DNA of 64,000 nt. Source: Comamonas granuli NBRC 101663 (lineage in GTDB: Bacteria > Pseudomonadota > Gammaproteobacteria > Burkholderiales > Burkholderiaceae_C). This document shows positions 417 through 62,234 of this stretch, piece after piece. The stretch lies in the NCBI RefSeq assembly GCF_000739995.1, contig NZ_BBJX01000004.1, positions 1 to 64,000 of the forward strand. Reading direction: 5' to 3'. A program made the position numbers and the translations under genes. Under the pieces are notes generated by a model, which saw nothing but the letters and a program-made list of their open reading frames with translations, made no database searches and was not told the origin of the DNA. Each line of letters opens with the position of its first letter. The stretch's first letter is position 1.

Positions 417-465
417 GCTATGAAATAAATAGCTTGTAGCGCAATAGTGGCGGGCGTTCAAGGCC
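417..465 (+). repeat. 49-bp palindromic element, copy A
   Basis: Copy A of the ten-member family (GCTAT....ATAGC..GCGC....GGCC). It lies intergenically between the recombinase remnant and the VOC gene. It is closest to copy B: both have ATAGCTTG and a GGGCGTT right arm. Confidence 0.75.
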
Positions 466-516
466 AATGTGAATCAAAAACTTCCCACCCAGTGGTGCCA
501 AAGCACCGTGCCCTGC

Positions 517-930
517 TTACCCCGCCAAATGGCACACCGCCTCGATGTTGTTGCCCTCGGGGTCGATGACGAAGGCGCCGTAGTAGTGCGCGTGGTACTC
601 GGGGCGCAGGCCGGGGCCGCCGTTGTCCTTGCCGCCGGCGGCGATGGCGGCGGCGTAGAAGGCGTCCACCTGGGCGCGGGTCTGGTCCTTCCAGGCCAGG
701 TGGCAGCCGGTGGTGGCTGGCGGGCCGCCGTAGGGGGAGGGGCCGTCAACGAACCACACGTCGGCCTTCTTGCCGTCGGGCTCCGCAGGGTCGGGGTAGG
801 CGAAACCGAGGATGTTCATGCCGTAGTTGCCTTCAAAGCAAACGCTATAGCCCAGGGGCGCGAGGGCTGCGCTGTAGAACGCCTTGGCGCGCTGGATGTC
901 GGTGACGCGGAAGGTCATGTGATCAAGCAT
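517..930 (-). CDS. VOC (glyoxalase/bleomycin resistance) family protein
   Basis: A 137-residue single-domain protein of the vicinal oxygen chelate fold. It begins MLDHMTFRVTDIQRAKAFY, the usual first beta-alpha unit. It has a middle strand GCHLAWKD and a C-terminal strand ending DPEGNNIEAV, where the family's last metal-ligand Glu sits. The substrate cannot be told; relatives are often annotated as glyoxalases or dioxygenase-like proteins. The start at 930 is preceded by AGGAG (936-940 on this strand) at good spacing, so the longer upstream frame is rejected. It stands alone, facing the recombinase remnant. Confidence 0.85.
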   Translation of the reverse strand: MLDHMTFRVTDIQRAKAFYSAALAPLGYSVCFEGNYGMNILGFAYPDPAEPDGKKADVWFVDGPSPYGGPPATTGCHLAWKDQTRAQVDAFYAAAIAAGGKDNGGPGLRPEYHAHYYGAFVIDPEGNNIEAVCHLAG

Positions 931-1062
931 GGGGGCTCCTGTGTGGGATGGGCGTGTGCGGGGCGCCGCTTCATACTGCACGCGCACAGCCCTGTTTGGC
1001 AAGAGGCCCGTGTGCCGGCTCCAAGGCCGATGCGCGGGGCAGGGGCGCAGCCGGGCGCGTCC

Positions 1063-2196
1063 TCAGGCCGCGCAGGTCTGGTTGCGCCCCTGTGCCTTGG
1101 CCTGGTACAGCGCCTTGTCGGCGCGGGCCAGCATGGCGTCGAGCGTGTCGCCGGGGCCGTGCCAGGTGGTCACGCCTATGCTGAGCTGGCAGTCCAGCGC
1201 GTGGCCCGACGTGGCGGCGGCATGGATGCGCTGGGCCACGGCCTGAGCGTCCTGGGCGCTGGTTTCGGGCAGCAGCACCATGAATTCCTCGCCGCCGTAG
1301 CGGCCCAGCCGGTCGGCGCGGCGCAGCACGGCCTGGGTGCGCTGGACAAAGTGCACCAGCACGGCATCACCATGCTGGTGGCCCTGGGTGTCGTTCACGG
1401 TCTTGAAGTGATCCAGGTCCAGCATCATCATGGCCGGGCCCCGGCCCGTGCGCGCGCAGCGCGCCAGTTCGTCCTCGAAGCGTTCGAGCAGGGCGCGGCG
1501 GTTGAGCGTGTGCGTGAGGGCGTCGTGCGTGGCCAGGTGCTGCAGTTCGGTGGTGAGCCGGTCGGTGGCCATGAGTACGGCGCCAATTGACAGCATCAGC
1601 ACGGTGAGCACATAGGCGCCGACGTACAGGGTCTGGTAGAGCGAGGGCTCCATGAGGTCGCTGCCCGCCTTGCCGACGAGGGTGGACGCCAACCGCACCA
1701 GCAGCACCGCGACATGCAGCACCAGCACCACTTCCACCAGCCGCACGGGAAAGCGCTTGCCGCCATGGCGCAGCAGAAAGCGCAGGTTGGCGGCATAGAC
1801 GCCGATCATCAGCACGGTGAAGATGCCCAGCCGCAGGGGGTAGTTCGGGTGGCCGTAGGTGAGCCAGGTGAACAGCAGCGCCGAGAGCGCCGCGATGCCG
1901 CCCCACAGGCGCCACCCGCCGCCGTGGCCGAGGAAGCGGCGGCAGCCGATGTAGTAGGCGATGGTGCCCAGCAGCAGCAAGGTGTTGGCCGCCACCAGCG
2001 AGAGCAGGTCGGGGAACGCGCCGCGCCCGCTGAACAGCACGGTGGCCACCAGCCACATCAGCGGGGCGGCGGTCCAGTAGCCTATGCCCTGGATGCTGGG
2101 CGGGTAGTAGCGCCGCATGAAATACAGCACCACGGCCATCAGCGCTGCCATGAAACCCGCCATGGCGATCAGGGAGCGCGGGTCGAGGTTCGTCAT
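1063..2196 (-). CDS. Membrane-anchored diguanylate cyclase (GGEEF)
   Basis: 377 residues. The first ~215 hold six to seven hydrophobic segments and no recognisable ligand motif, so this is a membrane sensor module of unknown signal. The C-terminal GGDEF domain has the active-site GGEEF at 301-305 and an RxxD inhibitory I-site (RRAD) exactly five residues upstream. It should therefore make cyclic di-GMP from two GTP and be product-inhibited. There is no EAL domain. It lies alone between the VOC gene and nth. Confidence 0.93.
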   Translation of the reverse strand: MTNLDPRSLIAMAGFMAALMAVVLYFMRRYYPPSIQGIGYWTAAPLMWLVATVLFSGRGAFPDLLSLVAANTLLLLGTIAYYIGCRRFLGHGGGWRLWGGIAALSALLFTWLTYGHPNYPLRLGIFTVLMIGVYAANLRFLLRHGGKRFPVRLVEVVLVLHVAVLLVRLASTLVGKAGSDLMEPSLYQTLYVGAYVLTVLMLSIGAVLMATDRLTTELQHLATHDALTHTLNRRALLERFEDELARCARTGRGPAMMMLDLDHFKTVNDTQGHQHGDAVLVHFVQRTQAVLRRADRLGRYGGEEFMVLLPETSAQDAQAVAQRIHAAATSGHALDCQLSIGVTTWHGPGDTLDAMLARADKALYQAKAQGRNQTCAA

Positions 2197-2287
2197 CGGG
2201 CGGGAGCGGAGCGCTTCGTGTGGCGTTGCAGTTCAGTATAGCCAGCACCGCCGCGGGCTGCATCGCAGGGCTATTTGAGGTCAATTT

Positions 2288-2336
2288 GGCCTGAAACGCC
2301 CGTATCGCGGGCGCAACAAGCTATGGATTCAATAGC
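2288..2336 (-). repeat. 49-bp palindromic element, copy B (supplies nth stop codon)
   Basis: Copy B, oriented with nth. Its stem is GCGCCCG/CGGGCGT instead of the usual GCGCTTG/CAAGCGC, i.e. compensatory changes on both arms. The element's first bases, GCTATTGA, encode the last residue (Tyr) and the TGA stop of endonuclease III. Confidence 0.82.
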
Positions 2337-2979
2337 GCACTGGCGGGGCTGGCGACTTGGGCTGGTAGTCGCAGTACGGCGCCACCAGGCATTCCCAGCA
2401 GCGTGGCTTGCGCGCCTGGCACACGTAGCGGCCCAGCAGGATGAGCCAGTGGTGCGAATCCACCGCGTAGGCCGCGGGCACGCGCGCGAGCAACTGCTTC
2501 TCGACCTCCAGCGGGTTCTTGCCCGGCGCCAGGCCGGTGCGGTTGCTGACGCGGAAGATGTGCGTGTCCACCGCCATGGTGGGCTGGCCGAAGGCCACGT
2601 TGAGCACCACGTTGGCGGTCTTGCGGCCCACGCCGGGCAAGGCTTCGAGCGCCGCGCGCGTGCGCGGCACCTCGCCGCCGTGTTGCTCCACCAGGATGCG
2701 GCAGGTCTCCATCAGGTGCCGCGCCTTGCTCTTGTAGAGGCCGATGGTCTTGATGTAGCCCTCCAGGCCGTCCTGCCCCAGCGCCAGGATGGCCTGCGGC
2801 GTGTTCGCCACCGGGAACAGCTTGCGCGTGGCCTTGTTCACGCCCACGTCCGTGGCCTGGGCCGACAGCAGCACGGCGGCCAGCAGCTCGAACACGCTGG
2901 TGTATTCCAGCTCGGTGTTGGGCTGCGGGTTGGCGGCCTTGAGGGTGGCGAAGAAGGGTTCGATCTGCGCGGTTTTCAT
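2329..2979 (-). CDS. nth: Endonuclease III (DNA glycosylase/AP lyase)
   Basis: 216 residues, the usual size for Nth, which removes oxidised pyrimidines and cuts the AP site in base excision repair. The helix-hairpin-helix LPGVGRKTANVV carries the catalytic Lys. VDTHIFRVSNR carries the catalytic Asp. The C-terminal [4Fe-4S] loop C-x6-C-x2-C-x5-C (CQARKPRC..C..C) is intact. The last residue and stop codon come from repeat copy B, so the extreme C-terminus (PPVRY) has probably been rewritten by the repeat. The gene is divergent from the aminotransferase at 3095. Confidence 0.96.
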   Translation of the reverse strand: MKTAQIEPFFATLKAANPQPNTELEYTSVFELLAAVLLSAQATDVGVNKATRKLFPVANTPQAILALGQDGLEGYIKTIGLYKSKARHLMETCRILVEQHGGEVPRTRAALEALPGVGRKTANVVLNVAFGQPTMAVDTHIFRVSNRTGLAPGKNPLEVEKQLLARVPAAYAVDSHHWLILLGRYVCQARKPRCWECLVAPYCDYQPKSPAPPVRY

Positions 2980-3094
2980 GGCGTGCAGTGTAGGGGCTGG
3001 GCGCCTGGCAGAGCGGGCGGTGCGCGCTTGCAGGAAACCTGCGCTCCGATTGGCGACAATGCGGGATTCGTTGCCAACTCCGCCCCATCACGCC

Positions 3095-4285
3095 ATGCAA
3101 TTCGCCGACCGCCTGAACAACGTCGAAACCTCCGCCATCCGCGAACTCTTCAAGCTGCTGGGCAAGCCCGGCATCATCAGCTTTGCCGGGGGCTTCCCCG
3201 ACAGCGCCATGTTCGACGTGGATGGCATCCAGGCCGCCGTGAACCAGGCCCTGGCCGAGGAGCCCGGCGCCGCGCTGCAGTACGGCGCCACCGAGGGCTA
3301 CCAGCCGCTGCGCGAGCAGCTCGGCCAGTTTATGGCCGGCAAGGGCGCGCAGGGCGTGGCGAGCGAGAACCTCATCGTCACCACCGGCAGCCAGCAGGCG
3401 CTGGACCTGCTGGGCAAGACGCTCATCAGCCCGGGCGACAAGGTGATCGTCGAAGGCCCGACCTTCCTGGCCACCATCCAGTGCTTCCGCCTCTATGGCG
3501 CCGAGCTCATCAGCGCGCCCATCGACGGCAACGGTGTGAAAACCGATGAGCTGGAAAAGCTCATTGCCGAGCACCAGCCCAAGTTCGTCTACCTCATCCC
3601 CACCTTCGGCAACCCCAGCGGCGCCATGCTGAGCCTGGAGCGCCGCAAGAAGGTGCTGGAACTGGCCGTGAAGTACCAGACCGTGGTGGTCGAGGATGAC
3701 CCCTATGGCGACCTGTATTTCGGCGAGGCGCCCCCGCCCAGCCTGCTGAACCTCTCAAGCCAAGTGCCGGGCAGCCGCGAGCTGCTGGTGCACTGCGGCA
3801 GCTTGAGCAAGGTGCTCTCGCCCGGCCTGCGCGTGGGCTGGATGATCGCCCCGGCCGACCTGCTGGCCAAGGCCACCATGTGCAAGCAATTCAGCGACGC
3901 GCACACCAGCACCTTCGCCCAGGCCACGGCCGCGCAGTATCTCAAGGCCGGCCGCATGCCCGCCACGCTGGCCCATGTGCGCAAGGTGTACGCCGAGCGC
4001 GCCCAGGCCATGGGCGACGCGCTGCGCAAGGAGCTGGGCGACGCCATCGAGTTCGTGCAGCCCCAGGGCGGCCTGTTCGTGTGGGCGCGCCTGACGGGCG
4101 CGGGTGGCAAGGTGGCGGATGGCAACGTGTTCGCCAAGCGCGCCATCGAGCAGGGTGTGGCCTTCGTGCCCGGCACGCCGTTCTTCTGCGCCCAGCCCGA
4201 CCACGCCACGCTGCGCCTGTCGTTCGCCACGGCCGATGTGGCCAAGATCCGCGAGGGCGTGGCGCGCCTGGCCCGAGCGCTCTGA
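3095..4285 (+). CDS. PLP-dependent class I/II aminotransferase
   Basis: 396 residues, fold-type I aminotransferase of the LysN/2-aminoadipate or aromatic transaminase type (no MocR DNA-binding domain). The PLP lysine is in the motif SLSKVLSPGLRVGW. GGFPDSAMF near residue 30 and PTFGNPSGA are typical substrate/cofactor segments. The start MQFADRLNN at 3095 is chosen because the upstream part of the frame overlaps the nth promoter region and has no protein-like composition. Substrate is not determinable from sequence. It converges on the PAS-GGEEF gene with no spacer (TGA/TCA abut at 4285/4286). Confidence 0.9.
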   Translation: MQFADRLNNVETSAIRELFKLLGKPGIISFAGGFPDSAMFDVDGIQAAVNQALAEEPGAALQYGATEGYQPLREQLGQFMAGKGAQGVASENLIVTTGSQQALDLLGKTLISPGDKVIVEGPTFLATIQCFRLYGAELISAPIDGNGVKTDELEKLIAEHQPKFVYLIPTFGNPSGAMLSLERRKKVLELAVKYQTVVVEDDPYGDLYFGEAPPPSLLNLSSQVPGSRELLVHCGSLSKVLSPGLRVGWMIAPADLLAKATMCKQFSDAHTSTFAQATAAQYLKAGRMPATLAHVRKVYAERAQAMGDALRKELGDAIEFVQPQGGLFVWARLTGAGGKVADGNVFAKRAIEQGVAFVPGTPFFCAQPDHATLRLSFATADVAKIREGVARLARAL

Positions 4286-5536
4286 TCAGGCGCCCACGGC
4301 CCAGCGGTCGCGGCCCCCGCGCTTGGCCTGGTAGAGCGCCTGGTCGGCGCGGTCGAGCAGGTCGCGCAGGCCGCGATCGGTGGCGCGCATGCAGCCCAGG
4401 CCGATGCTGGTGGTGATTCGCCAGCGCTGCCCCTGTTCGTCGGTCAACGGCAGGCTGCGGATGTGTTGCAGGATGCGCTCGGCAATGGCCGTGCCATCGT
4501 GCGCCTCGGTGCGCGGCAGCAGCACGCCGAATTCCTCACCGCCCAGGCGCCCCACGACGTCGTCGGCACGCAGCAGCGTCTGCACGGCCTGGGCAAAGTC
4601 GATGAGCACGCGATCGCCCTCCAGGTGGCCCAGCCTGTCGTTGATGTGCTTGAAGTGGTCCAGGTCCAGCATCAGCAGCGCGAGCGGCTCTGACCGGCTG
4701 CGGGCCTGGTCGAACGCGGCCTGTGCCTGCTGCAGGAACACGCGGCGGTTGGCCATGCCGGTGAGCGTGTCGGTGCTCGCCATGCGGTGCAGCTCGCGTT
4801 CGAGGTTCTTGCGTTGGGTCACATCGCGGTAGATGCCCTCGACGCCGGCAAATTGGCCTTGGGCGTCGAAGATCGCCTGGCTGCTGATGGAAATGTCGAT
4901 GACCCGGCCGTCCTTGCGCACCATCTGCCCTGGAAAGTCTGCCACCTCCCCGTGGCTGGCGATGGCCGCCTTGAAGGCATCGCGGTCGGCGCTGTGCGGG
5001 TAGTAGGACTCGGCCGTGCGTCCGATGATCTGCTCGGGCTCGTAGCCCAGAACGCGGCGCACGCCGGGCCCCACGTCGAGCACCACGCCCTGTGCATCGG
5101 TGCGGTAGTACACGTCCTGCATGTTCTCGAACAGGCGGCGGTAGTTGCGGTCGCTCTCGAGCAACTGGGCCTCGATCTCGCTTTGGTGGGTCATGTCGGT
5201 GCCGCAGACCAGCAGGCAGGGCTCGCCGCCGATCTCCACGACGACACTCGTGACCAGGGCCATGCGCAGACGGCCGCGGCAGGTGTGCACGCGGTATTGG
5301 GCGGCCTGGCTGGGAGTGCCGCGCTCCTGGAGGGACGCGCGCTGGGCCATGCGTTCCTGTGAGCGCCGCTGGTCGATGGGGTGGATGAACTCCGACAGCG
5401 GATGGCCTATGACATGCTCGGTGGCATCGGCTTCCAGCAGGGCCAGGCACACCGGGTTGGCCTCCTTGATCACGCCGTTCTGTACGACCAGAACCGCGAC
5501 GGGAAGCATGTGCAGCAAAGCGTTGTCGATGGGCAT
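4286..5536 (-). CDS. PAS-PAS diguanylate cyclase
   Basis: 416 residues, soluble (no membrane segment). Two PAS domains (about 5-125 and 130-245) are followed by a GGDEF domain with GGEEF at 332-336. An RADD I-site lies five residues upstream, so product inhibition is expected. It is predicted to make c-di-GMP in response to a cytoplasmic cue; no haem or flavin ligand can be assigned by eye. It is the second cyclase within 4 kb and independent of the membrane-bound one. It abuts the aminotransferase tail-to-tail. Confidence 0.92.
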   Translation of the reverse strand: MPIDNALLHMLPVAVLVVQNGVIKEANPVCLALLEADATEHVIGHPLSEFIHPIDQRRSQERMAQRASLQERGTPSQAAQYRVHTCRGRLRMALVTSVVVEIGGEPCLLVCGTDMTHQSEIEAQLLESDRNYRRLFENMQDVYYRTDAQGVVLDVGPGVRRVLGYEPEQIIGRTAESYYPHSADRDAFKAAIASHGEVADFPGQMVRKDGRVIDISISSQAIFDAQGQFAGVEGIYRDVTQRKNLERELHRMASTDTLTGMANRRVFLQQAQAAFDQARSRSEPLALLMLDLDHFKHINDRLGHLEGDRVLIDFAQAVQTLLRADDVVGRLGGEEFGVLLPRTEAHDGTAIAERILQHIRSLPLTDEQGQRWRITTSIGLGCMRATDRGLRDLLDRADQALYQAKRGGRDRWAVGA

Positions 5537-5671
5537 GGCGCAAAGGGGAGAGCCCCCGGCAGCGATTGTGGCACTGCCGGCGCACGCCAGGCACCCGGCA
5601 GCGGGTGGCCTGGACTTGGTGTTTTCCCGTAGCAGGGCGCGTATGCGCCTGGCCGCCAGGAGGAGCGCGGG

Positions 5672-6403: not shown

Positions 6404-6436
6404 GGGGGTGTGTCCTTGAAAGTGGTATTTCGTTTG

Positions 6437-23144: not shown

Positions 23145-23852
23145 ATGAAAATTGCTACAAAATCAATAGCTGCTTGCGCTTTATTGGTAAGCGCTAGCGC
23201 CACTTTTTGTCAAAATCTGCAGGCGCAGGAGCCGCGCAATGTGGTGCAGTTGTCGGCCGCGGGGGCCGTGGAGGTGCAGCAGGACCAGCTCGTGCTCACC
23301 CTGGGCACCCAGGCCGATGGCAAGGACGCTGCCGCCGTGCAGGCGCAGCTGCGCCAGGTGGTGGATGCCGCCTTGCAGGTGGCGCGCCGCCAGGCCGAGG
23401 CGCCGCACATGGAGGTGCGCACGGGCCAGTTCAGCCTGTACCCGCGCCACGGCAAGAATGGCGAGATCGCCGGCTGGCAGGGACGCGCCGAGCTGGTGCT
23501 GCAGGGGCGTGACTTCGGCCGCATCACCGCCACCGCAGCGCGCATCAGCGGCATGGCCATTGCGAACCTGGGGTTCGGCCTCTCGCGCGGCGAGCGCGAG
23601 CGCGCCGAAGGCGAGGCGCGTGCCCAGGCCATCGCGGCGTTCAAGGCCCGGGCGGGCGAAATCACCCGGGCCTTCGGTTTTGGCAGCTACCTGTTGCGCG
23701 AGGTGGCGGTGTCCAGCCACGGCGGCGGGGGCATGCCCCCGCCGCGCGTGATGGCCATGCAGGCCAAGGCCATGGCGGATGCGCCCCTGGACGTGGAGCC
23801 AGGGAAAAGCACCGTCGAGGTGTCGGTGTCCGGCTCGGTGCAGATGCAGTGA
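23145..23852 (+). CDS. SIMPL-domain (DUF541) secreted protein
   Basis: 235 residues. A short signal peptide (MKIATKSIAACALLVSASA) precedes a SIMPL domain: NVVQLSAAGAVEVQQDQLVLTL, GWQGRAELVLQGRDFG and the C-terminal VSVSGSVQMQ. Family members are periplasmic or outer-membrane-associated and of poorly known role. Nearly the whole signal peptide is encoded by repeat copy C (23154-23202), read in frame 0. A second, inverted copy (D) begins 4 bp after the stop codon. The start ATG at 23145 lies just outside the element. It sits between convergent bdhA and the oxidoreductase. Confidence 0.85.
   Translation: MKIATKSIAACALLVSASATFCQNLQAQEPRNVVQLSAAGAVEVQQDQLVLTLGTQADGKDAAAVQAQLRQVVDAALQVARRQAEAPHMEVRTGQFSLYPRHGKNGEIAGWQGRAELVLQGRDFGRITATAARISGMAIANLGFGLSRGERERAEGEARAQAIAAFKARAGEITRAFGFGSYLLREVAVSSHGGGGMPPPRVMAMQAKAMADAPLDVEPGKSTVEVSVSGSVQMQ
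23154..23202 (+). repeat. 49-bp palindromic element, copy C (forms SIMPL signal peptide)
   Basis: Copy C aligns gap-free to the family, with stem GCGCTT/AAGCGC. It begins nine bases after the ATG and encodes ATKSIAACALLVSASA, the hydrophobic core and probable cleavage region of the signal peptide. Confidence 0.85.
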
Positions 23853-23856
23853 AAAC

Positions 23857-23905
23857 AGCACTGAGCGCTTGACTGGCAAGCGCCAAGTGCTATCAAGATC
23901 GTAGC
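23857..23905 (-). repeat. 49-bp palindromic element, copy D (between SIMPL gene and bdhA)
   Basis: Copy D is in inverted orientation to copy C. It fills the gap between the SIMPL stop (23852) and the convergent bdhA stop (23907). Stem GCGCTTG/CAAGCGC; it may act as a bidirectional terminator. Confidence 0.85.
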
Positions 23906-23906
23906 T

Positions 23907-24695
23907 TTATTGCGCGGTCCAGCCGCCGTCCATGTTCCAGGCCACGCCGCGCACATTGTTGGCGGCGCTGGAGCAGAAGAACACGGCCAGGCCCGCCAGC
24001 TCCTCCGGCGTGGTGAACTGCATGGAGGGCTCCTTCTCGCCCAGCAGCACCTTCTTGGCCTCCTCGTTGGAGATGCCCAGGGCGGCGGCCTTGGCGTCCA
24101 CCTGCTTTTGCACCAGGGGCGTGAGCACCCAGCCCGGGCAGATGGCATTGCAGGTGATGCCGGTGGTGGCGGTCTCCAGGGCCGTGACCTTGGTCAGACC
24201 CACGATGCCGTGCTTGGCGGCCACATAGGCCGACTTCTGCACCGAGGCCACGAGGCCGTGCACCGAGGCCACGTTGATGATGCGCCCCCAGTTGGCCGCG
24301 CGCATGGCGGGCAGGGCCAGACGCGTGGTGTGGAAGGCGCTGGTGAGGTTGATGGCGATGATGGCGTCCCAGCGCTCGGCCGGGAAGTCCTCGATGCTGG
24401 CCACATGCTGAATGCCGGCGTTGTTCACGAGGATGTCCACGCGGCCGTTCGGACCGGCGGCAAAGGCCATCATGTCGGCGATGTCGGCGCTGCGCGACAT
24501 GTCGGCGCCGTGGTGTTCGACGCGCACGTCGTGCCCCGCCTGTGCGGCGGCGGCGCGCACCTCGGCGCATGGGCCCTGGGCGTCACCGAAACCGTTGAGG
24601 ACGACATGGGCGCCCTGTTGGGCCAGGGCCTTGGCGATGCCCAGCCCGATGCCGCTGGTGGAACCGGTGACGAGGGCCGTCTTGCCTGTGAGCAT
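23907..24695 (-). CDS. bdhA: 3-hydroxybutyrate dehydrogenase
   Basis: 262 residues, short-chain dehydrogenase. It oxidises D-3-hydroxybutyrate from polyhydroxybutyrate breakdown to acetoacetate with NAD. The Rossmann motif is TGSTSGIG (9-16), then LVNNAGIQHV, the catalytic Ser in INVASVHGLV and YVAAKHG. CPGWVLTPLVQKQ and DGGWTAQ are typical of HBDH. The start MLTGKTALV (24695) has GGAGAA at good spacing. PhaR further along also indicates PHB metabolism. Confidence 0.93.
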   Translation of the reverse strand: MLTGKTALVTGSTSGIGLGIAKALAQQGAHVVLNGFGDAQGPCAEVRAAAAQAGHDVRVEHHGADMSRSADIADMMAFAAGPNGRVDILVNNAGIQHVASIEDFPAERWDAIIAINLTSAFHTTRLALPAMRAANWGRIINVASVHGLVASVQKSAYVAAKHGIVGLTKVTALETATTGITCNAICPGWVLTPLVQKQVDAKAAALGISNEEAKKVLLGEKEPSMQFTTPEELAGLAVFFCSSAANNVRGVAWNMDGGWTAQ

Positions 24696-32234: not shown

Positions 32235-33626
32235 ATGAGCGACGCACTCTCCCCCAACCCCACCCCCAAGATCGGTTTCGTCAGCCTGGGCTGCCCCAAG
32301 AACCTGACCGACTCCGAACTCATCCTCACGCAACTGAGCGCCGAGGGCTACCAGACCGCCAAGACCTTCGAGGGCGCGGACCTGGTCATCGTCAACACCT
32401 GTGGCTTCATCGACGACGCCGTCAAGGAAAGCCTGGACACCATCGGCGAGGCCCTGGCCGAGAACGGCAAGGTCATCGTCACCGGCTGTCTGGGCGCGCG
32501 CTCGGACCGGGACGGCGGCAACTACGTGCAGCAGGTGCACCCCAGCGTGCTCGCCGTGACCGGCCCGCAGGCCACGCAGGACGTGATGGACGCCGTGCAC
32601 CGCCACCTGCCCAAGCCGCACGACCCCTTCATCGACCTGGTGCCCGGCGCCTTCGGCGAGGCGGGCATCAAGCTCACGCCGCGCCACTACGCCTACCTCA
32701 AGATCAGCGAGGGCTGCAACCACCGCTGCACCTTCTGCATCATCCCCTCGATGCGCGGCGACCTGGTCTCGCGCCCCATTGGTGACGTGCTGAACGAGGC
32801 GCGGGCGCTGTTTGCGGGCGGGGTGAAGGAGCTGCTCGTCATCAGCCAGGACACCTCGGCCTATGGCGTGGATGTGAAATACCGCACCGGCTTCTGGGAC
32901 GGCAAGCCCGTCAAGACGCGCACGCTGGAGCTGGTGCAACAGCTCGGCGAACTGGCCGCGCCCTACGGCGCCTGGGTGCGCCTGCACTATGTCTACCCCT
33001 ACCCCAGCGTGGACGAGATCATTCCCCTCATGGCCCAGGGCCTGGTGCTGCCCTACCTGGACGTGCCCTTCCAGCACAGCCACCCGGACGTGCTGCGCCG
33101 CATGAAGCGCCCGGCCAGCGGCGAGAAGAACCTCGAGCGCATCCAGCGCTGGCGCGAGGTGTGCCCTGAATTGGTGATCCGCAGTACCTTCATCGCCGGT
33201 TTCCCGGGCGAGACGGAAGAGGAATTCCAGCACCTGCTTGACTTTGTGCGCGAGGCGCAGATCGACCGCGCCGGCTGCTTTGCCTACAGCGACGTGACCG
33301 GTGCTGCGGCCAACCAGCTGCCCGGCATGCTGCCGCTGCAGGAGCGCGAGGAGCGCCGCGCGCGCTTCATGGCCGTGGCCGAGGAGGTGTCGGCCGCCAA
33401 GCTGCAAGAGCGTGTGGGCGCCACCATGCAAATCCTGGTGGACCGCGCCCCCGCCCAGGGCCGCAAGGGCGCCGTCGGGCGCAGCTATGCCGATGCGCCC
33501 GAGATCGACGGCGTGGTGCACCTGCTGCCCCCGGCCAAGGCCAGCAAGACCATCAAGGTTGGCGACTTCATCGATGCCGAGATCGTCGCCGCCCAAGGCC
33601 ACGACCTCATCGCGCAGCCCTGTTGA
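32235..33626 (+). CDS. rimO: Ribosomal protein S12 methylthiotransferase RimO
   Basis: 463 residues. The N-terminal UPF0004 domain has conserved Cys ([30 protein letters not shown]). The radical-SAM motif C-x3-C-x2-C is at ~160 ([10 protein letters not shown]), and a TRAM domain follows. RimO adds a methylthio group to an Asp of S12. SLGCPKN plus [11 protein letters not shown] separates it from MiaB. It starts 25 bp after phaR, so it is likely co-transcribed. Repeat copy E begins 3 bp after its stop. Confidence 0.95.
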
Positions 33627-33628
33627 AT

Positions 33629-33677
33629 GCTACTGATTTGATAGCTGCTGGCGCTTGCCTGGCAAGCGCTGCAGGCC
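33629..33677 (+). repeat. 49-bp palindromic element, copy E
   Basis: Best-preserved copy. GCGCTTGCC/GGCAAGCGC gives a perfect 9-bp stem around one base, followed by GGCCAAATTG. Intergenic, directly after rimO. Confidence 0.88.
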
Positions 33678-33723
33678 AAATTGCTTTCAATTGACGTCCG
33701 GCGGTCCGCCGCCGCACGCGCCC

Positions 33724-33757
33724 AGCAAAAAGGCTTCCCGCAGGAAGCCTTTTTGCT
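33724..33757. terminator. Bidirectional terminator between rimO and efp
   Basis: Perfect 15-bp dyad (AGCAAAAAGGCTTCC / its complement) with a CGCA loop. It has a T-run on either strand and serves both convergent genes. Confidence 0.9.
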
Positions 33758-33774
33758 GCCGGGGCCGTGCAGGC

Positions 33775-34477: not shown

Positions 34478-35623
34478 TTACTCTGTTTTCTGGCGCACGA
34501 AATTCAGGAGCTGTGTCACCAGGTCCGGCTGCGCCAGCAGGCGCGTGCGCGCGGCCCGCACGCAGGCCCCCCATTCGGCCAGCAGGCCGGCGTCGAGCTG
34601 CGGCAGCGCGGCCTGCTCCAGCCCGTTCCAGACGGCGTGAAACTGGCGCAGCGCGGCGGGCGCCTGCAGCCAGTCCAGAAAGGCGTGCAGCTTGCCGTGG
34701 TGCGCGTCGTCGTGCTGCGGGTAGATCTGCCAGACCAGCGGCTGTCCGGCCCACAGCGCACGCACGAGCGAATCCTCCCCGCGCACGAAATTCAGGTCGC
34801 AGGCCCAGAGCATTTCGTCGAAAGCGTCCTGCGGTTGGTAGGAGAGGTATGAAATCGATAGCTGCTTGCGCTTGTCCCATGCGCCCTGCAGGGTATTTTG
34901 GCTTTGATCGGCCTGCAGGGCGGCGCGCGTGGCGGCTGCGGCGCGCCCCGGCGTCACCAGCCAGTGCGTGGGCTGGGTGCGGCACTGTGCGAGCAGCGCC
35001 GGCAGCGCCGGGGGCTCGTAGCAGAACAGCGAGAACCAGCGCGCCTGCGCGCCCTGGTCCGGGGCGGCGCCGTGGCGCTGGCGCCAGGCGGCGCGATCGA
35101 AACGGGCCTGGCGCTGCAGCAGGCCGTGCTCGCGCAGCAGGCCGCCCGTGGCGGGGGTGAAGCCGGGGTAGAAGAAGCATTTGGCATCACCGGCCGCACC
35201 GCTGCCGTGGGCGGGTGAGGGCAGGCCGTGGCAGCGCTCCACATAGCCCTCGGCGCTGAGGTATTCGAGATTGATCCAGACGTATTTTTGCCCTGTGGCG
35301 CTCGCGTGCTGCGCGCATTGCGCTATGAAATCAGGAGCTGGGTCGCAGCCGAAGGCCTCCACCAGCACCTCGGTGGGCGGCTCGTGCGCCGCGCGCAGGC
35401 CGCCGAAGGCGCGCACCTGCACGCCCGGGCAGCCCTGCGGCGCCAGCCAGGCCAGGGCCGAGGCGTCGTCCGTCCACAGGCGCACCTGCTGCCCGCGCCG
35501 GGCCAGCTCGGCGGCCAGGCGCCAGCACACGCCGATGTCGCCGAAGTTGTCGATCACACGGCACACGATGTCCCACTGGCGTGCTGCAGCGGGGGGCGAT
35601 GCGGGAGGAGCGGACAGGGTCAT
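34478..35623 (-). CDS. earP: EF-P arginine rhamnosyltransferase EarP
   Basis: 381 residues, GT-B fold glycosyltransferase that puts rhamnose from dTDP-rhamnose on the EF-P Arg. N-terminal [21 protein letters not shown], middle [16 protein letters not shown] and the C-terminal [23 protein letters not shown] (nucleotide-sugar site) are typical. The gene lies upstream of efp in the same direction. Two copies of the 49-bp repeat (F antisense, G sense) lie in frame within it, encoding [17 protein letters not shown] and [16 protein letters not shown]. Divergent from uvrC (48 bp). Confidence 0.93.
34846..34894 (+). repeat. 49-bp palindromic element, copy F (inside earP, antisense)
   Basis: Copy F (GATAGCTGCTTGCGCTTG core intact) lies within the earP coding region, opposite to the gene. 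The right stem arm is decayed (GCGCC), as expected under coding constraint. Confidence 0.75.
35290..35338 (-). repeat. 49-bp palindromic element, copy G (inside earP, sense)
   Basis: Copy G aligns gap-free (GCTCCTGATTTCATAGC....GAGCGCCACAGGGC). It is read in frame 0 by earP as [16 protein letters not shown]. It is more diverged than the intergenic copies. Confidence 0.65.
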
Positions 35624-48749: not shown

Positions 48750-49880
48750 TCAGAACCTGTCGCGCCCTTGCACGTGCGCCAGAATGCGCAAGTCCCGCCC
48801 CACGGGCTGCACCGCATCGAACTCCAGCGCCAGCCCATGAGATACCGCCGCCAAAGGCGGCCTGTCTGCCATGCCCCGGCCCGGGCCAAGCAGGGTAGGG
48901 GCCAGGTAGAGCAGCAGCTCGTCCACCAGGGCGGCATCGAGCAAGGCGCCATTGAGCGTATGCCCGGCTTCCACATGCAGCTCGTTCACGCCACGACGTG
49001 CCAGATCGCGCAGCATGGCAGGCAAATCCACCCGCCCCCCAGCGCCCGCCAGCAGCGCGACGGTGGCGCCGAGCGCCTCCAGCGCCAGCCTGCGCGCCGC
49101 AAATGCCGCGCTATCTTGAGCATCAAAAGGGCCGGTAGCGTATATCCAGCAAGCGCGACCAGCTACGAATATAGGAGCGTCCGGCGGTGTCCGCAAATGG
49201 CTGTCGAGCACCACCACATGCGGCTGGCGTGGAGTGGCCACGGCACGCACGTCCAGCCGGGGCCTGTCGGCCAGTACCGTACCGACGCCGGTCAGGATGG
49301 CGCAGGCGCGTGCGCGCCAGGCATGGCCATCGGCGCGCGCCTCGGGCGAGGTGATCCACTGGCTCGCCCCATTGTGCAGGGCGGTGGTCCCGTCGAGCGA
49401 AGCGGCCACCTTCATGCGCACCCAGGGTGTACCCCGCAGCATGCGGCTGAAGAACCCGATATTGAGCGCCCGCGACTCGGCCGCGCCGGCGCCGACCTCC
49501 ACGGTCACCCCGGCGGCGCGCAGCCGGGCAAAACCCTGACCACCGACCAGCGGATTGGGATCCTCGATGCTGGCCACCACCCGGGCAATGCCTGCGGCAA
49601 TCAAGGCATCGCAGCACGGCCCGGTACGGCCTTGGTGGGCGCAGGGCTCCAGCGTGACCCATGCCGTGGCCCCGCGCACGCCGTAACCCCGTGCGGCGGC
49701 ATCGCGCAGCGCCACCACCTCGGCATGCGGGCCGCCGGCCTGCTGGGTGAAGCCTTCGCCCAGCACCTGCCCATCGGGCGCAGTGATCACGCAGCCCACA
49801 CGCGGGTTGGGATTGGAAAGAAAAAGCGCCTGGGCGGCCAGCCCAAGCGCTCGGGTCATGAAGGGCGTGTCAGTTGTCAT
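48750..49880 (-). CDS. ribD: Bifunctional riboflavin deaminase/reductase
   Basis: 376 residues. The N-terminal deaminase has zinc motifs HAEVVAL and VTLEPCAHQGRTGPCCDAL. The C-terminal reductase has MKVAASLDGTTAL, ILTGVGTVLADRP and ELHVEAGHTLNGALL. It performs two successive steps of riboflavin synthesis. Repeat copy H (49130-49178) is read in frame as APIFVAGRACWIYATG, at a variable surface region between reductase strands. MTTDTPFMTRAL at 49880 is the start. pilE ends 30 bp upstream. Confidence 0.95.
   Translation of the reverse strand: MTTDTPFMTRALGLAAQALFLSNPNPRVGCVITAPDGQVLGEGFTQQAGGPHAEVVALRDAAARGYGVRGATAWVTLEPCAHQGRTGPCCDALIAAGIARVVASIEDPNPLVGGQGFARLRAAGVTVEVGAGAAESRALNIGFFSRMLRGTPWVRMKVAASLDGTTALHNGASQWITSPEARADGHAWRARACAILTGVGTVLADRPRLDVRAVATPRQPHVVVLDSHLRTPPDAPIFVAGRACWIYATGPFDAQDSAAFAARRLALEALGATVALLAGAGGRVDLPAMLRDLARRGVNELHVEAGHTLNGALLDAALVDELLLYLAPTLLGPGRGMADRPPLAAVSHGLALEFDAVQPVGRDLRILAHVQGRDRF
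49130..49178 (-). repeat. 49-bp palindromic element, copy H (inside ribD, sense)
   Basis: Copy H aligns without gaps (GCTCCTATATTCGTAGC..CGCGCTTGC....GGCC), and similarity continues past GGCC as CTTTTGATGCT. It is read in frame 0 by ribD. The right stem arm is decayed. Confidence 0.75.
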
Positions 49881-49910
49881 GGCGCCCGGATGGTAGCGCA
49901 TTGCTTTGAA

Positions 49911-55853: not shown

Positions 55854-55854
55854 T

Positions 55855-56511: not shown

Positions 56512-56516
56512 GGTAG

Positions 56517-57092: not shown

Positions 57093-57112
57093 GGTTTCTC
57101 GTCCGTGCGGGT

Positions 57113-57667
57113 TCAAGCGGGGCAGGCGGCCCCTTGTTTCATTTGCACAATGCGCCCGCCGCCCGCAATGCACAGCCGGATGGCGCTGATGTCCGTATCG
57201 CCCTTGCCATTGGGTTTGAGCAGGATATTCATCGCTGCCGGAGCACCGCCGTTGGCTTCCGAGAGCATGCCCCAACGGTCCACGTAGAGCTGCAGCTTGC
57301 CGTTGCTCTGGGCCAGGCTGACGCGGCTGGGGGCGGCGTTGACTTGCAGGTCTGTGGTGGTGCCGTTCTGGGTGTGGGTGACTTTCCAACCCTGATCCCA
57401 GCCTCCGGTGGCATCGATGGTGATGCCGCCCCCGCGCTTGATGGCTTCGGAGCGCGCGTAGTACAGGGTGGAGGTGAGATTTTCTGCGGCCTCGCGCACG
57501 CGCCAGCGCTCGATCAGGGGCTGGAAACTCGGGGCCGCCAGCGCCGCCAGGATGGCGACGATGGATACCACCACCATCAGCTCGATGGCGGTGAATCCGG
57601 CGTGGTGTGCCGGCCCCTTTTGCGCGGGTGCGCTGAAGGCTGGGCGTGGAAATGCGAAGAATGGCAT
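57113..57667 (-). CDS. fimT: GspH/FimT-type pseudopilin (copy 2)
   Basis: 184 residues. Site AG|FTAIELMVVVSIVAILAALAAPSF, then LYYARSEAIKRGGG and the domain ending GGGRIVQMKQGAACPA. It is clearly paralogous to copy 1 across the helix and the C-terminal RIV motif, so it is a tandem duplication. GC is still high here, unlike in pilW-pilY1. First gene of the pilin operon. Confidence 0.88.
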   Translation of the reverse strand: MPFFAFPRPAFSAPAQKGPAHHAGFTAIELMVVVSIVAILAALAAPSFQPLIERWRVREAAENLTSTLYYARSEAIKRGGGITIDATGGWDQGWKVTHTQNGTTTDLQVNAAPSRVSLAQSNGKLQLYVDRWGMLSEANGGAPAAMNILLKPNGKGDTDISAIRLCIAGGGRIVQMKQGAACPA

Positions 57668-57764
57668 AGGAACATGCTATGGGCGCAGGGGGGCAAGGGC
57701 GCCCGGGCGGGGATGAATGGCGCCTTGGCGCAGACGAGCGGTCAATAGCTTGCTGGCGGTGCGC

Positions 57765-58064
57765 TTACCGGGTGTAGCCCAGGCAGGCGCCGGCGTTGTG
57801 CATGCCTTTGCACTCGCGTTTGAGCCGCCGGTCGCGCTGGGCCGGGGACTCTTCCGAAGGGCTGCGCTGGTAGGTGATTTTGCTCACGCCTTTCTTGCGG
57901 GGCGCTTCGGCGGCGGCGCTGCTGCCCTGGGCGCGCTTGGCCAGGGCGGCGCCCGGGGCGCCCAGCAGGCCCAGTGCCAATACGGCAGCGAGCAGCCGCG
58001 CCGCCATGGAGACGGAAGCGCGCGGGACCGTGCGGGAGGGTGGGGGTGTGTGCTGGGGTGTCAT
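57765..58064 (-). CDS. Small secreted hypothetical protein
   Basis: 99 residues. Signal peptide (MAARLLAAVLALGLLGAPGAALA, possibly with MTPQHTPPP as an upstream extension). The mature part is basic and ends SPAQRDRRLKRECKGMHNAG plus ACLGYTR with two Cys, which may form a disulfide. I do not recognise a named family. It is read on the strand opposite to the aminotransferase, with an 87-bp divergent gap. An alternative start is the ATG about 20 codons further in. Confidence 0.65.
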   Translation of the reverse strand: MTPQHTPPPSRTVPRASVSMAARLLAAVLALGLLGAPGAALAKRAQGSSAAAEAPRKKGVSKITYQRSPSEESPAQRDRRLKRECKGMHNAGACLGYTR

Positions 58065-58151
58065 GCGGGGGCTTTCGGTGGGTGTGGGGCCGCAGGGGTG
58101 GGGGATGCCGTAGGATGCCGCGGCTTGTTCCTTCGGTTTTTCCATGCTGCC

Positions 58152-59321
58152 ATGCGCCAGACCATTCTTGACCTCGAAGAATCCCGCATCCGTGAAGTTG
58201 CCAATGCCGGCATGGGGCGCAGCGATGTGCTGGCTTTCTGGTTTGGCGAGAGCGATGAGGGCACGCCCGAGGTCGTGCGCCAGGCGGCCATGGAGTCCAT
58301 CGCCCGCGGCGAGACGTTTTATGCCCACAACCTGGGTCTGCCGGAGCTGCGCGAAGCGGTGGCACAGTACATGACGCAGTTGCACGGGCCGGTGGCGGCC
58401 GATCGCATTGCCATCACCTCCGGCGGCGTCAATGCGCTGATGCTGGCCGTGCAGGCCTTGGTGGACGCCGGCGACGAAGTCGTGGCGATCACCCCTGTCT
58501 GGCCCAATCTGACGGCGCAGCCGCTCATCATGGGCGCGCACTTGCGCTGCGTGGCCCTGGCGCCGCAGGCCGATGGCCAATGGGCCCTGGACATGGAGGC
58601 GCTGCTGGCCGCCATCACGCCCGCGACGCGCCTGCTGGTACTCAATGCGCCCAACAACCCCACAGGTTGGACGCTCACGCGCGCCGAGCAGCAGCGCATC
58701 CTGGCGCACTGCCGCAGCACGGGCACCTGGATTCTGGCCGACGAGGTGTACGAGCGCCTCTATTACGAGCCTTCGGCCCAGGGCTGCGCCCCCAGTTTCC
58801 TCGATGTGGCCGAGCCGCAGGACCGTCTGGTGGTGGTGCACAGCTTCTCCAAGAGCTTTTTGATGACCGGCTGGCGCCTGGGCTGGATGGTGCTGCCGCC
58901 CGGCATGGCGCCGCAGGTGGGCAAGTTGATCGAGTTCAACACCTCCTGCATCAGCGTGTTCACCCAGCGTGCCGGGCTGGCGGCGCTGCAGCATGCCGAC
59001 GCCATCACGGCCCAGGTGGTGGGCCACCTGCGGCGCTGCCGCGACACCCTGGTGCCGCTGCTGCAGGCGGTGCCGGGGGTGCAGGTGGCGCCGGCGCGCG
59101 GGGGCATGTATGCCTTCTTCCGGCTGGCCGGGCAGGACGATTCGCTGGAGGCGGCCAAGCGCCTCGTCCTGCAGGCGGGCCTGGGCCTGGCGCCGGGCAA
59201 TGCCTTCGGGCCGCAGGGGCAGGGCTGGCTGCGCTGGTGCTTTGCTTCGCGCGATCCGCAGCGACTGCAAGAGGGGGTGCGCAGGCTGCAGGGGTGGCTG
59301 GCGTCCGCGAGCCAGTTATAA
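58152..59321 (+). CDS. Pyridoxal phosphate-dependent aminotransferase
   Basis: 389 residues, fold-type [21 protein letters not shown] at the N-terminus, [23 protein letters not shown] and the PLP Lys in [17 protein letters not shown]-terminal [22 protein letters not shown]. AspC/AlaT-like; substrate not determinable. Its stop (TAA 59319-59321) lies inside the TATAAT of the putative rpsO promoter. ATG at 58152 is used; another at 58144 is out of frame. Confidence 0.9.
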
Positions 59322-59322
59322 T
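59317..59322 (+). promoter_or_regulatory. Possible -10 box of rpsO
   Basis: TATAAT overlapping the aminotransferase stop, 124 bp before rpsO. No convincing -35 at 17 bp. Confidence 0.4.
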
Positions 59323-59445
59323 CGACGAGTTTTGCATGGTGCAAGACGCACGCCAGTTGCCGTTCCAGCTTCTGGCGCAAGTAAAACCCGTGCCTGCTGG
59401 CGGCTTCACAAGGGCTGCCGCGCACCCAACCACACAGGAAAACCA

Positions 59446-59712
59446 ATGATCTCCTCTTCCGCCAAGGCCGAAGTCGTCAAGGCCAACCAGCGCGCTGCCA
59501 ACGATACCGGCAGCCCTGAGGTCCAGGTGGCGCTGCTCACCGCCCGTATCAACGAGCTGATGCCCCACTTCAAGACGCACGCCAAGGACCACCACGGCCG
59601 CCGCGGCCTGCTGCGCATGGTGAGCCGCCGCCGCAAGCTGCTCGACTACCTCAAGGCCAAGGATGCCGACCGCTACACCGCGCTGATCAGCAAGCTGGGC
59701 CTGCGCAAGTAA
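59446..59712 (+). CDS. rpsO: 30S ribosomal protein S15
   Basis: 88 residues, standard. [29 protein letters not shown] and [24 protein letters not shown] are the S15 signature; it binds the central domain of 16S rRNA. ACAGGAAAA ribosome site. The usual rpsO-pnp order is kept, with a terminator between them. Confidence 0.98.
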
Positions 59713-59730
59713 GCCCTACCGCATGCAGGG

Positions 59731-59766
59731 AACGCCTGGGTTAGTGCGCTGACTCAGGCGTTTTTT
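59731..59766 (+). terminator. Terminator between rpsO and pnp
   Basis: AACGCCTG...CAGGCGTT (59731-59738/59755-59762) with further partial pairing inside the loop, then TTTTTT. It is read-through type in many rpsO-pnp operons. Confidence 0.85.
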
Positions 59767-59857
59767 GCTTTGGCTGGGGTGCCAAGCAGAGCGAAGCTGT
59801 GTCATTCCAATGAATTGCCGCGCGCGGTTTCACTGGAATGGCATCGTTTGCTGAATT

Positions 59858-59906
59858 GGCCTCCAGCGCCCGCTGGCAGAGCGCTGCCAGCTATTTATTC
59901 AGGAGC
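59858..59906 (-). repeat. 49-bp palindromic element, copy I (supplies pnp Shine-Dalgarno)
   Basis: Copy I (GCTCCTGAATAAATAGC..CAGCGC....GCGCTG GAGGCC). It lies antisense to pnp. The complement of its first bases (AGGAGC, 59901-59906) is the pnp ribosome-binding site, six bases from the ATG. Confidence 0.85.
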
Positions 59907-59911
59907 AAACC

Positions 59912-62158
59912 ATGACCATGTTCAATAAAATCACCAAGACCTTCCAGTGGGGCCAGCACACGGTCACCATGGAGACGGGCGAAATCGCCCGCCAGGCCAG
60001 CGGCGCCGTGCTCGTCAACATGGACGACACCGTGGTGCTGGCCACCGTGGTGGCATCCAAGTCGGCCAAGCCCGGCCAGGACTTCTTCCCCCTGACGGTG
60101 GACTACATCGAGAAGACCTACGCCGCCGGCAAGATCCCCGGCAGCTTCTTCAAGCGCGAGGCCAAGCCCAGCGAGCTGGAGACGCTGACCAGCCGCCTGA
60201 TCGATCGCCCGATCCGCCCGCTGTTCCCTGAGGGCTTCTACAACGAAGTCCACGTGGTCATCCACACCATCTCGCTCAACCCCGAGGTGGATGCCGACAT
60301 CGCCGCCATGATCGCCACCAGCGCCGCGCTGGCGGTCTCCGGCATCCCGTTCAACGGCCCCATCGGCGCTGCGCGCGTGGGCTACATCAACGGCGAATAC
60401 GTGCTCAACCCGGGTCAGACGGCGCGCAAGAGCAGCCAGATGGACCTGGTGGTGGCGGGCACCGAAGCCGCCGTGCTGATGGTCGAGTCCGAAGCGCAGC
60501 AACTGCCCGAGGACGTGATGCTGGGCGCCGTGGTCTATGGCCATGAGCAGAGCCAGACCGCCATCAACGCCATCCACGAGCTGGTGCGCGACGCCGGCAA
60601 GCCCGTGTGGGACTGGCAGGCTGCGCCCAAGGACGAGGCGCTGATCGCCAAGGTGGCCGAGCTGGGCGAGGGCGCGCTGCGCGCCGCCTACCAGCACCGC
60701 AACAAGCAGGTGCGCACCCAGGCCTGCCGCGAGGCCTATGCCGCAGTCAAGGCCGGTCTGGCCGCGCAGGGCGTGGAATTCGATTCCGTGAACGTGGACA
60801 ACCTGCTGTTCGAACTCGAGGCGCGCATCGTGCGCGGCCAGATCCTGGCGGGCGAGCCGCGCATCGACGGCCGTGACACGCGCACCGTGCGCCCCATCGA
60901 AATCCGCAATTCCGTGCTGCCGCGCACCCACGGCTCGGCGCTGTTCACGCGCGGCGAGACGCAGGCCCTGGTGGTCACCACCCTGGGCACCGAGCGCGAT
61001 GCGCAGCGCATCGACGCGCTGGCCGGCGAGTTCGAGGACCGCTTCCTGTTCCACTACAACATGCCTCCCTTCGCCACCGGCGAAGTGGGCCGCATGGGCT
61101 CGACCAAGCGCCGCGAAGTCGGCCACGGCCGTCTGGCCAAGCGCGCCCTGGTGGCCTGCCTGCCGAGCAAGGACGAGTTCCCCTACACCGTGCGTGTGGT
61201 CTCCGAGATCACCGAGTCCAACGGCTCCTCGTCCATGGCCTCGGTCTGCGGCGGCTGCCTGTCGCTGATGGACGCCGGCGTGCCCATGAAGGCGCATGTG
61301 GCGGGCATCGCCATGGGCCTGATCAAGGAGGACAACAAGTTCGCCGTGCTGACCGACATCCTGGGCGATGAGGACCACCTGGGCGACATGGACTTCAAGG
61401 TGGCCGGCACCACGGCCGGCATCACGGCGCTGCAGATGGACATCAAGATCCAGGGCATCACCAAGGAGATCATGCAGGTCGCCCTGGCCCAGGCCAAGGA
61501 GGCGCGCATGCACATCCTCGGCAAGATGCAGGAGGCCATGGGCGAGGCCAAGGCCGAGATCTCGTCCTTTGCGCCCAAGCTCTACACCATGAAGATCAAC
61601 CCCGAGAAGATCCGCGACGTGATCGGCAAGGGCGGCGCCACCATCCGCGCGCTGTGCGACGAGACCGGCTGCCAGATCAACATCGAGGAAGACGGCACCA
61701 TCACCATCGCCTCCAACGACTCCGCCAAGGCCGATGAGGCCAAGCGCCGCATTGAGGAAATCACCGCCGAGGTCGAAATCGGCAAGGTGTACGAAGGCCC
61801 GGTCACCAAGATTCTGGACTTCGGCGCCCTGGTGAACCTGCTGCCCGGCAAGGACGGCCTGCTGCACATCAGCCAGATCGCCCACGAGCGCGTGGAAAAG
61901 GTCACCGATTACCTGACCGAAGGCCAGATCGTCAAGGTCAAGGTGCTCGAGACCGACGAGAAGGGCCGCGTCAAGCTGTCGATGAAGGCGCTGACGGAGC
62001 GCCCCGCCGGCATGGAGCGCCCCGAGCGCGGCGAGCGCGAGGAGCGTGGCGAACGCCGTGAGCGCCGCGAGCGCGCCCCGCGCGAGCACCGCGAGCAGCA
62101 GGTGCCTGCCATGCAGCAGGCCCCGGCCCAGGACGGCCAGGACGCTTCCCAGGAGTGA
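59912..62158 (+). CDS. pnp: Polyribonucleotide nucleotidyltransferase
   Basis: 748 residues. Two RNase PH-like domains ([20 protein letters not shown] region; [16 protein letters not shown]), a KH domain with GKGG ([13 protein letters not shown], ~565) and an S1 domain ([19 protein letters not shown]). It degrades RNA 3'-5' by phosphorolysis in the degradosome. The C-terminal ~50 residues are a repetitive Glu/Arg-rich tail ([17 protein letters not shown]). The start at 59912 is decided by AGGAG at 59901, which belongs to repeat copy I. Confidence 0.97.
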
Positions 62159-62185
62159 GTCCGGCGCCGCAGGCAGGCGCGCAGC

Positions 62186-62234
62186 GCTATGGTATTCGTA
62201 GCTGCTCGCGCTTGCCTGGTAAGCGTTTCATGCC
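62186..62234 (+). repeat. 49-bp palindromic element, copy J
   Basis: Copy J lies between pnp and the quinone oxidoreductase (GCTAT....CGTAGC..CGCGCTTG....AAGCG), 26 bp before the oxidoreductase start. Stem CGCTT/AAGCG. Confidence 0.85.

Follow-up and report, generated by a model that had tools for sequence, protein, structure and literature searches.

A dispersed palindromic repeat of the Comamonadaceae and its probable TIRYT-like RAYT partner

Repetitive extragenic palindromic (REP) sequences and their REPtrons, served by the transposase TnpA-REP or RAYT, are outlined in passages of PMC3733652 and PMC6006769 as small, palindromic, extragenic repeats that can exceed 100 copies, carry a tetranucleotide tag beside a hairpin and have related sequence at a single-copy HUH/Y1 transposase gene, with copies inside genes being tolerated. 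A horizontally acquired RAYT is mentioned for one betaproteobacterium, Thauera, in part of PMC2817692. A further class of genes, the TIRYTs with their TIRtrons, is defined in PMC3733652, the sections concerned describing GGGGWSAS repeats for many of them, a predominance of TIRtrons in species without REPs, and moderately abundant terminal inverted repeat (TIR) families for some, for example in S. maltophilia; repeats tied to TIRYTs are therefore not unprecedented. Most TIRYTs correspond to TnpA-Y1 subclass 2.1 or RAYT group 1, and for subclasses 2.1 and 2.3 the relevant passages of PMC6006769 report that REP-like sequences were not found. Here we describe a palindromic repeat present in ten copies (A–J) in a 64,000-nt stretch of Comamonas granuli NBRC 101663 (contig NZ_BBJX01000004.1, positions 1–64,000, hereafter the window; contig 31 of 34 in our numbering). 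It shares the REP features listed above, and on balance we think it probable that it is a family of REP type with a single-copy, TIRYT-like RAYT as its transposase.

A large repeat family in part of one bacterial family

The ten copies lie where the original prediction had placed them and align without gaps over 49 positions, with T14, A15, G16, C17, G23, C24 and G25 invariant as it had stated and C26 invariant in addition. With a covariance model built from these copies, whose own scores of 44–63 bits are high by construction, the next match in the window scored 24.5 bits, and the four next-best matches were opposite-strand overlaps of the copies themselves. A 44-column weight matrix gave 12 matches at or above 0 in the real window and none in one mononucleotide-shuffled window. 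An Rfam scan of the window at gathering scores returned three tRNAs only, the repeat matching no known Rfam family.

The original prediction allowed that a genome scan might find no excess of copies; the excess is clear, with at least 149 copies in the 3.5-Mb genome (149 of the 150 candidates scored, at E ≤ 1e-3, and hence a lower bound). Among the 12 other species of the genus, nine have 19–125 matches (E ≤ 1e-5) and three (G002, G005 and G008) have none. Within the family, where no more than 40 candidates were scored in each genome, carriers make up 41 of 150 genomes and belong to 35 of 126 genera; G169 was classed as a carrier from its loci only. At the level of the order, 4 of 250 genomes had matches, all of them, our genome included, in the one family f1, and none of eight genomes from other families of the order had any (E ≤ 1e-5). 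An exact 43-nt pattern occurs in nine stretches, in records of Ottowia, Comamonas and Acidovorax and in two labelled only Pseudomonadota, and in the complete genome of another genus (G127) 149 of the 150 scored candidates are copies. Among the genomes searched, the repeat family is confined to part of one bacterial family, the Comamonadaceae judging by the named records.

Alignment of 101 own-genome copies revealed sharp conservation from about −3 to about +64, including the 3′ W-tracts, so the unit is ~67 bp long and the length of 49 bp first proposed was wrong. (The set excludes three copies with indels, namely that of L080, the second of L077 and the third of L083, as well as three reverse-strand overlaps and two duplicate rows; one locus-edge copy is not in the A3 set.) The consensus reads W W W T GCTAY TGAWTTG RTAGC TGCTN GCGCTTG n5 CAAGCGC TGSAGGCC N WTTT n6 AAAW and comprises a short AT-rich dyad (GCTAY-n7-RTAGC), an RTAG tag, a GCGCTT-n7-AAGCGC hairpin, AGGCC and two W-tracts. 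Its edges are sharp, and no long TIR is apparent in the column profile.

Covariation in the predicted stem is weak: the score of 0.175 compares with 0.160 in shuffles, 11 of 500 of which reach it, stem cells changed on both sides number 61 compared with 50.6 (22 of 500 shuffles reach this), and stem pairs with double changes are no more numerous than in shuffles. The hairpin thus gives a weak signal above shuffles and falls short of one clearly defined by covariance; the two-sided change in copy B, to which the prediction had pointed, is real, and the GCGC core is without covariation. The strongest couplings join neighbouring columns, including TTT/AAA at 52–54, and RNA folds of four copies on both strands (8 folds) gave z-scores of −0.16 to −2.97 against shuffles. 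Given this weak pair signal, the neighbour couplings and the folding scores, it is sequence, more than fold, that is kept.

A motif of Acidovorax ebreus, GCTTAT(N)5AAGCG, is listed in Table 7 of PMC5217627 with 114 copies, 107 of them intergenic (44 of these convergent and 4 divergent) and close to gene ends, and the parts of that paper dealing with it present it as an unexplained motif pair only. We found this string in 2 of our 101 copies and in one Comamonas plasmid copy, and the motif is probably the hairpin of the present repeat; the Polaromonas motif pair of the same table matched 0 of the 101. The BRE of Bordetella, compared by description only, is likewise a betaproteobacterial dispersed repeat with some copies in coding sequence. 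It differs in being 75–91 bp at full length, partly tandem and present at 1–29 per genome, with 1 in Acidovorax sp. JS42, according to the descriptive part of PMC3110155. No published name for the family was found in open-licence literature, and element strings occurred in none of the paper texts.

The RAYT transposase and its 3′ end

The original prediction had suggested looking for a linked RAYT/TnpA-like transposase, and a RAYT with related sequence at its 3′ end is present in many carriers. In our genome, a RAYT-like HUH/Y1 protein is encoded on contig 34 (54963–55673) and scores 79.4 bits with NCBIfam NF047646, REP_Tyr_transpos (cutoff 80). A protein query (E ≤ 1e-20) found a homologue in 146 of 150 family genomes, mostly in single copy. 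We compared 52 RAYT loci, from 40 family genomes (23 with at least 7 family-scan matches and 17 with none) and 12 loci of the genus; G038 and G105, with at least 7 matches, are outside this sample. All 52 have a GGG[AT]C[AG] motif no more than 160 nt beyond the 3′ end of the gene, with TCTGACCC 46–47 bp beyond TGTCCC where both strings matched. A strict 5′ pattern within 200 bp of the gene was matched in 31 of 52 loci (15 of 32 carriers and 16 of 20 non-carriers) and was not found, under the same pattern and distance, at the RAYT of our genome. These motifs, here GGGGTCAG and GGGGACAC/T, are of the GGGGWSAS type that accompanies TIRYT genes (TIRtrons) in passages of PMC3733652 and PMC6006769, and from this flanking motif the protein looks like a TIRYT, which would place it in subclass 2.1 or RAYT group 1.

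Between the RAYT stop codon and the 3′ motif, the other strand reads GGGACAYATCAAAWTTGATAGC, and in many carriers the element's hairpin comes next; in the published TIRYT repeat families, in contrast, the repeat is the TIR itself. An RTAGC tag comes after the GGG[AT]C[AG] motif in 22 of the 32 carriers and in 5 of the 20 non-carriers (Fisher p = 0.004, uncorrected for descent), and three of those five are the genus's own non-carriers; the pattern missed G004, though ATAGC is visible at its RAYT locus. An element-like hairpin (matrix score ≥ 0) stands antisense directly after the RAYT stop in 14 of 32 carriers and 0 of 20 non-carriers, the latter figure being what one would expect if non-carriers had no copies at all. 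Against a background of 30 in 235 genes, itself biased upwards because the windows were mostly picked for holding copies, the carrier rate is high (binomial 1.5e-5, shared descent ignored). A strong copy also lies upstream of RAYT in two carriers (G028 and G001), and a weak upstream match in one non-carrier (G067).

Our first reading had been that RAYT is unlinked to the repeat, based on a Pfam search (no Y1_Tnp in the carrier G003, Y1_Tnp present in non-carriers) and on weak model matches (23 bits, two loci). It was superseded, as the protein query finds a RAYT in G003 and RAYT-linked copies differ at the left end, to which the covariance model was blind, whence the weak matches. The G003 RAYT (contig 2, 21463–22149) is 53–54% identical to that of our genome, below many other genera; in the stretches compared, no genome is closer to ours by DNA than G003 (83–84%).

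The cognate factor would most likely be this single-copy HUH/Y1 transposase, a RAYT of apparent TIRYT type. By analogy with TnpA-REP of E. coli, it would recognise tag and hairpin as single-stranded DNA; it may have spread the element in the past, and its continued activity, or host use of each copy, would keep the core. Of the analogy to REP sequences or miniature inverted-repeat transposable elements (MITEs) drawn in the original prediction, the REP part is supported by REP-like anatomy, copies in genes and signals and a RAYT-type transposase with related 3′ sequence; decaying remnants of an ordinary MITE are disfavoured.

Old sites, kept cores and gene context

Six of the ten window copies, where half had been predicted, overlap genes or their signals. 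Two lie within earP (34478–35623, − strand; PF10093, E = 3.5e-116), the gene of the EF-P rhamnosyltransferase: copy F (34843–34909, +; 49-bp core 34846–34894) in antisense and copy G (35275–35341, −; core 35290–35338) in sense. Copy H (49115–49181, −; core 49130–49178) lies in sense within a ribD-like gene (48750–49901, −). Two copies overlap stop codons: copy B (2273–2339, −; core 2288–2336) at the 3′ end of an endonuclease III-like gene (2329–2979, −) and copy D (23842–23908, −; core 23857–23905), which occupies the whole gap between two convergent genes. Copy I (59843–59909, −; core 59858–59906), between the S15 gene (59446–59712) and the PNPase gene pnp (59912–62158), ends 2 bp from the pnp start and supplies AGGAGC near the start codon. 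The gap also holds, at ~59785–59842, a hairpin CATTCCA...TGGAATGGCATCG, conserved in the aligned genus members and in most of the other genera compared.

The remaining copies lie between genes or at their edges. Copy C (23151–23217, +; core 23154–23202) lies in the gap of a divergent gene pair, 23 bp upstream of the start of a SIMPL-domain gene, and copy J (62183–62249, +; core 62186–62234) separates the PNPase gene from a zinc-binding dehydrogenase-like gene. The top-scoring copy E (33626–33692, +; core 33629–33677) starts where a radical SAM/TRAM-domain gene has its stop codon; just downstream of the copy is a terminator-like hairpin (AAAAAGGCTTCCC...GGAAGCCTTTTT, ~33725–33760) that is conserved in the genus. 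Copy A spans 414–480 (+; core 417–465); a weak inverted half-copy lies over its left end (393–433, −; 18.2 bits), like an inverted REP pair. In G127, 16 neighbouring copy pairs are less than 3 kb apart, 11 in the same, 1 in convergent and 4 in divergent orientation.

Seven sites (C, D, E, F, G, I and J; A, B and H stood outside the comparison) were compared between species across the genus. The copies are mostly old, not fresh insertions: six of the seven sites are shared with five or more other members of the genus, and the non-carriers have colinear sequence at site I instead of an empty site, so the repeated recent landing announced in the original prediction is unsupported. That prediction also reasoned that a lack of empty sites would speak against it; element-free sites do exist at D and E and are lacking at some others. 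At site D, element-like sequence is present in seven genus members and absent in G003, which has a direct stop-to-stop junction; site E is without the element in several species, and site J is occupied in eight other genus members.

Copies in coding sequence are shared beyond the genus. Among 29 earP loci of other genera (L170–L198), matches (E ≤ 0.1, 19–51 bits) fall at two places in the gene: that of copy G in 11 loci, in sense, ~20 residues before W[IL]NLEYL (25 in L182), and that of copy F in nine loci, in antisense, near residues 221–236 in the usual numbering. Other genera thus have the two earP copies at the same codon positions, and the peptide segments at the copies are short or absent in several other loci. 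Because earP matches occur in G045 and G077, both without a match in the family scan, relics exist in non-carriers.

At site I, the S15–PNPase gap, all 12 relatives are colinear. Identity among the nine carriers is 0.92 in core and 0.75 in variable columns; the three non-carriers keep 10–11 of 20 core letters, the core being broken, and their identity to carriers is 0.53–0.57 in the core and 0.61–0.66 in variable columns. The site is also degraded (16.7 bits) in the carrier G010, which was excluded from these identity counts. In other genera the gap is mostly 199–240 bp (range 152–291), often with another hairpin by eye, and element scores there are 37.1 (G033), 23.7 (G041), 20.4 (G084) and 15.4 bits (G028).

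At the orthologous noncoding sites D, E and J, core identity is 0.82, 1.00 and 0.82 and variable identity 0.31, 0.38 and 0.47, core columns being retained while the remaining columns are near saturation; unrelated own-genome copies show 0.93 and 0.40, the former flattered because those copies were chosen by score. This retention fits either copy-level selection on the core or in-place renewal of copies. The column-specific, non-uniform conservation also tells against the copies being decaying remnants of an ordinary MITE without present function. Dispersal, intergenic placement and absence at some sites (D in G003, E in several species) would suit such remnants, but no target duplications were noticed by eye in the listed flanks and in-gene copies are retained across genera; this reading was already disfavoured, and we regard it as very improbable.

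By a purpose-made gene finder, 31 of the 101 copies are sense and 28 antisense between co-directional genes, 28 lie between convergent and 2 between divergent genes, 9 are inside genes and 3 sit at locus edges. The repeat is mainly extragenic (89 of 101 copies between or overlapping gene ends), in many cases takes up the entire intergenic gap, and many copies lie within a few bp of stop codons. Of the 50 neighbouring gene pairs in the window, 9 are divergent and 8 convergent, so the 2 divergent against 28 convergent copies indicate that divergent gaps are avoided. Of the 17 copies whose left end adjoins a start codon, 10 have C or T at position 4, compared with 18 of the other 81 (p = 0.006), so this end is rich in purines when read along the gene; enrichment of the strict GGAG form there is not significant (5 of 17 against 12 of 81, p = 0.17), and a Shine-Dalgarno reading is only partly borne out.

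Proximity to stop codons, the convergent excess and U.G wobbles in the stem are what an RNA 3′-end element would show, that is, a transcribed hairpin serving as terminator or mRNA-end protector. Against this, sense and antisense copies between co-directional genes are about equal; an A-tract replaces the T-tract at 52–53 in 19 of 100 copies, in-gene copies are retained in earP, and folding energies are only slightly better than those of shuffles (z −0.2 to −3.0). We consider an RNA role improbable, and an intrinsic terminator in particular is disfavoured by the orientation counts, the tract swap and the folding energies.

Duplex recognition would suit both the TTTT/AAAA swap at 51–54 and the absent orientation preference. 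Each copy might then be a host-functional site bound by a trans-acting factor, as an uptake-sequence-like or nucleoid site would be, held by purifying selection and lost with its factor, with RAYT not involved now. The core kept at shared noncoding sites against near-saturated columns agrees with this, as do the 10–11 of 20 core letters left in site I non-carriers and the natural transformation reported, in part of PMC4212676, for 2 of 4 tested Acidovorax species and for Verminephrobacter. Spacing in G127, by contrast, is random (coefficient of variation 0.98 against 0.99 for random placement) at a mean of ~21 kb, neither even nor with clear ori–ter polarity. No factor was identified, and this reading leaves the resemblance at the RAYT 3′ end unexplained; we judge a purely host-functional site unlikely.

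Cassettes, plasmids and the balance of evidence

The reverse-frame translation of the consensus matches positions 1–21 of Pfam DUF1010 (24.6 bits, cutoff 25), and several weak genomic DUF1010 matches coincide with repeat copies; by this match, DUF1010 appears to begin with the translated repeat. In a class 1 integron, the DUF1010 cassette that separates dfrA12 from aadA2, an open reading frame (ORF) cassette that we take to be orfF/gcuF, holds a 42.8-bit copy (L258, 1493–1538), and the origin of its start bears on the annotation of this resistance-integron ORF. In G127 (contig 1, 1577472–1590608; L259), thirteen strong DUF1010 matches lie within ~13 kb, most with a 16–41-bit copy; attC-like TCTAAC...GTTAG stretches follow several ORFs by eye, and the run looks like a chromosomal integron array.

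The consensus was matched in 1,754 plasmid records and copy E in three. Among 60 plasmid rows inspected, those of Enterobacterales, where they name the feature, give DUF1010, bar one 'hypothetical protein'. On plasmids pADP-1 and Comamonas sp. C11 (L306 and L307), copies lie near IS1071 transposase genes, which suggests carriage of chromosomal fragments. Of 50,697 phage records, one, labelled Salmonella, matched the consensus and none matched copy E; in IMG/VR an exact pattern occurs in 29 stretches, of which 14 were scored with the model.

Several observations weigh against a REP-type family served by RAYT or set this one apart from known REPs. The tag is mostly ATAG, with GTAG a minority (81% of copies have A and 17% have G at position 13, then TAG), where the REP standard is GT[AG]G; the unit is a longer composite than a REP, with an AT dyad and W-tracts, and its transposase is TIRYT-like; and stem covariation is weak, as described above. 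RAYT is present in nearly all non-carriers too and so is not sufficient, the tag pattern fails in 10 of 32 carriers, 18 of 32 have no clear hairpin at RAYT, and left ends differ, with GCTAY in dispersed copies and GGGACAYATCAAA in RAYT-linked ones. No recent insertion with matching flanks was seen in the between-species comparison, and the core is less alike at D and J (0.82) than among own-genome copies (0.93). Finally, DUF1010 ORFs of the non-carrier G005 contain element-like copies (32.5 and 28.1 bits; 28–33 bits overall).

The REP-type family with a TIRYT-like RAYT nevertheless remains our preferred reading, and we tentatively extend it, with more doubt than confidence, to the proposal that TIRYT-type RAYTs do have REP populations. 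A hairpin beside the TIR would have become a dispersed, long-lived Comamonadaceae REP family, whose copies are held in place across genera by host use or RAYT-dependent renewal and die by point mutation where the interaction is lost. If true, this would provide a hairpin substrate for the TIRYT or RAYT group 1 transposases, for which the pertinent passages of PMC6006769 report none, and would connect TIRtrons with REPtrons in a way that part of PMC3733652 discusses as a possible route by which REPs form. Sister species that do and do not carry the repeat, all with the same transposase, offer natural replicates for asking why bacteria keep REPs.

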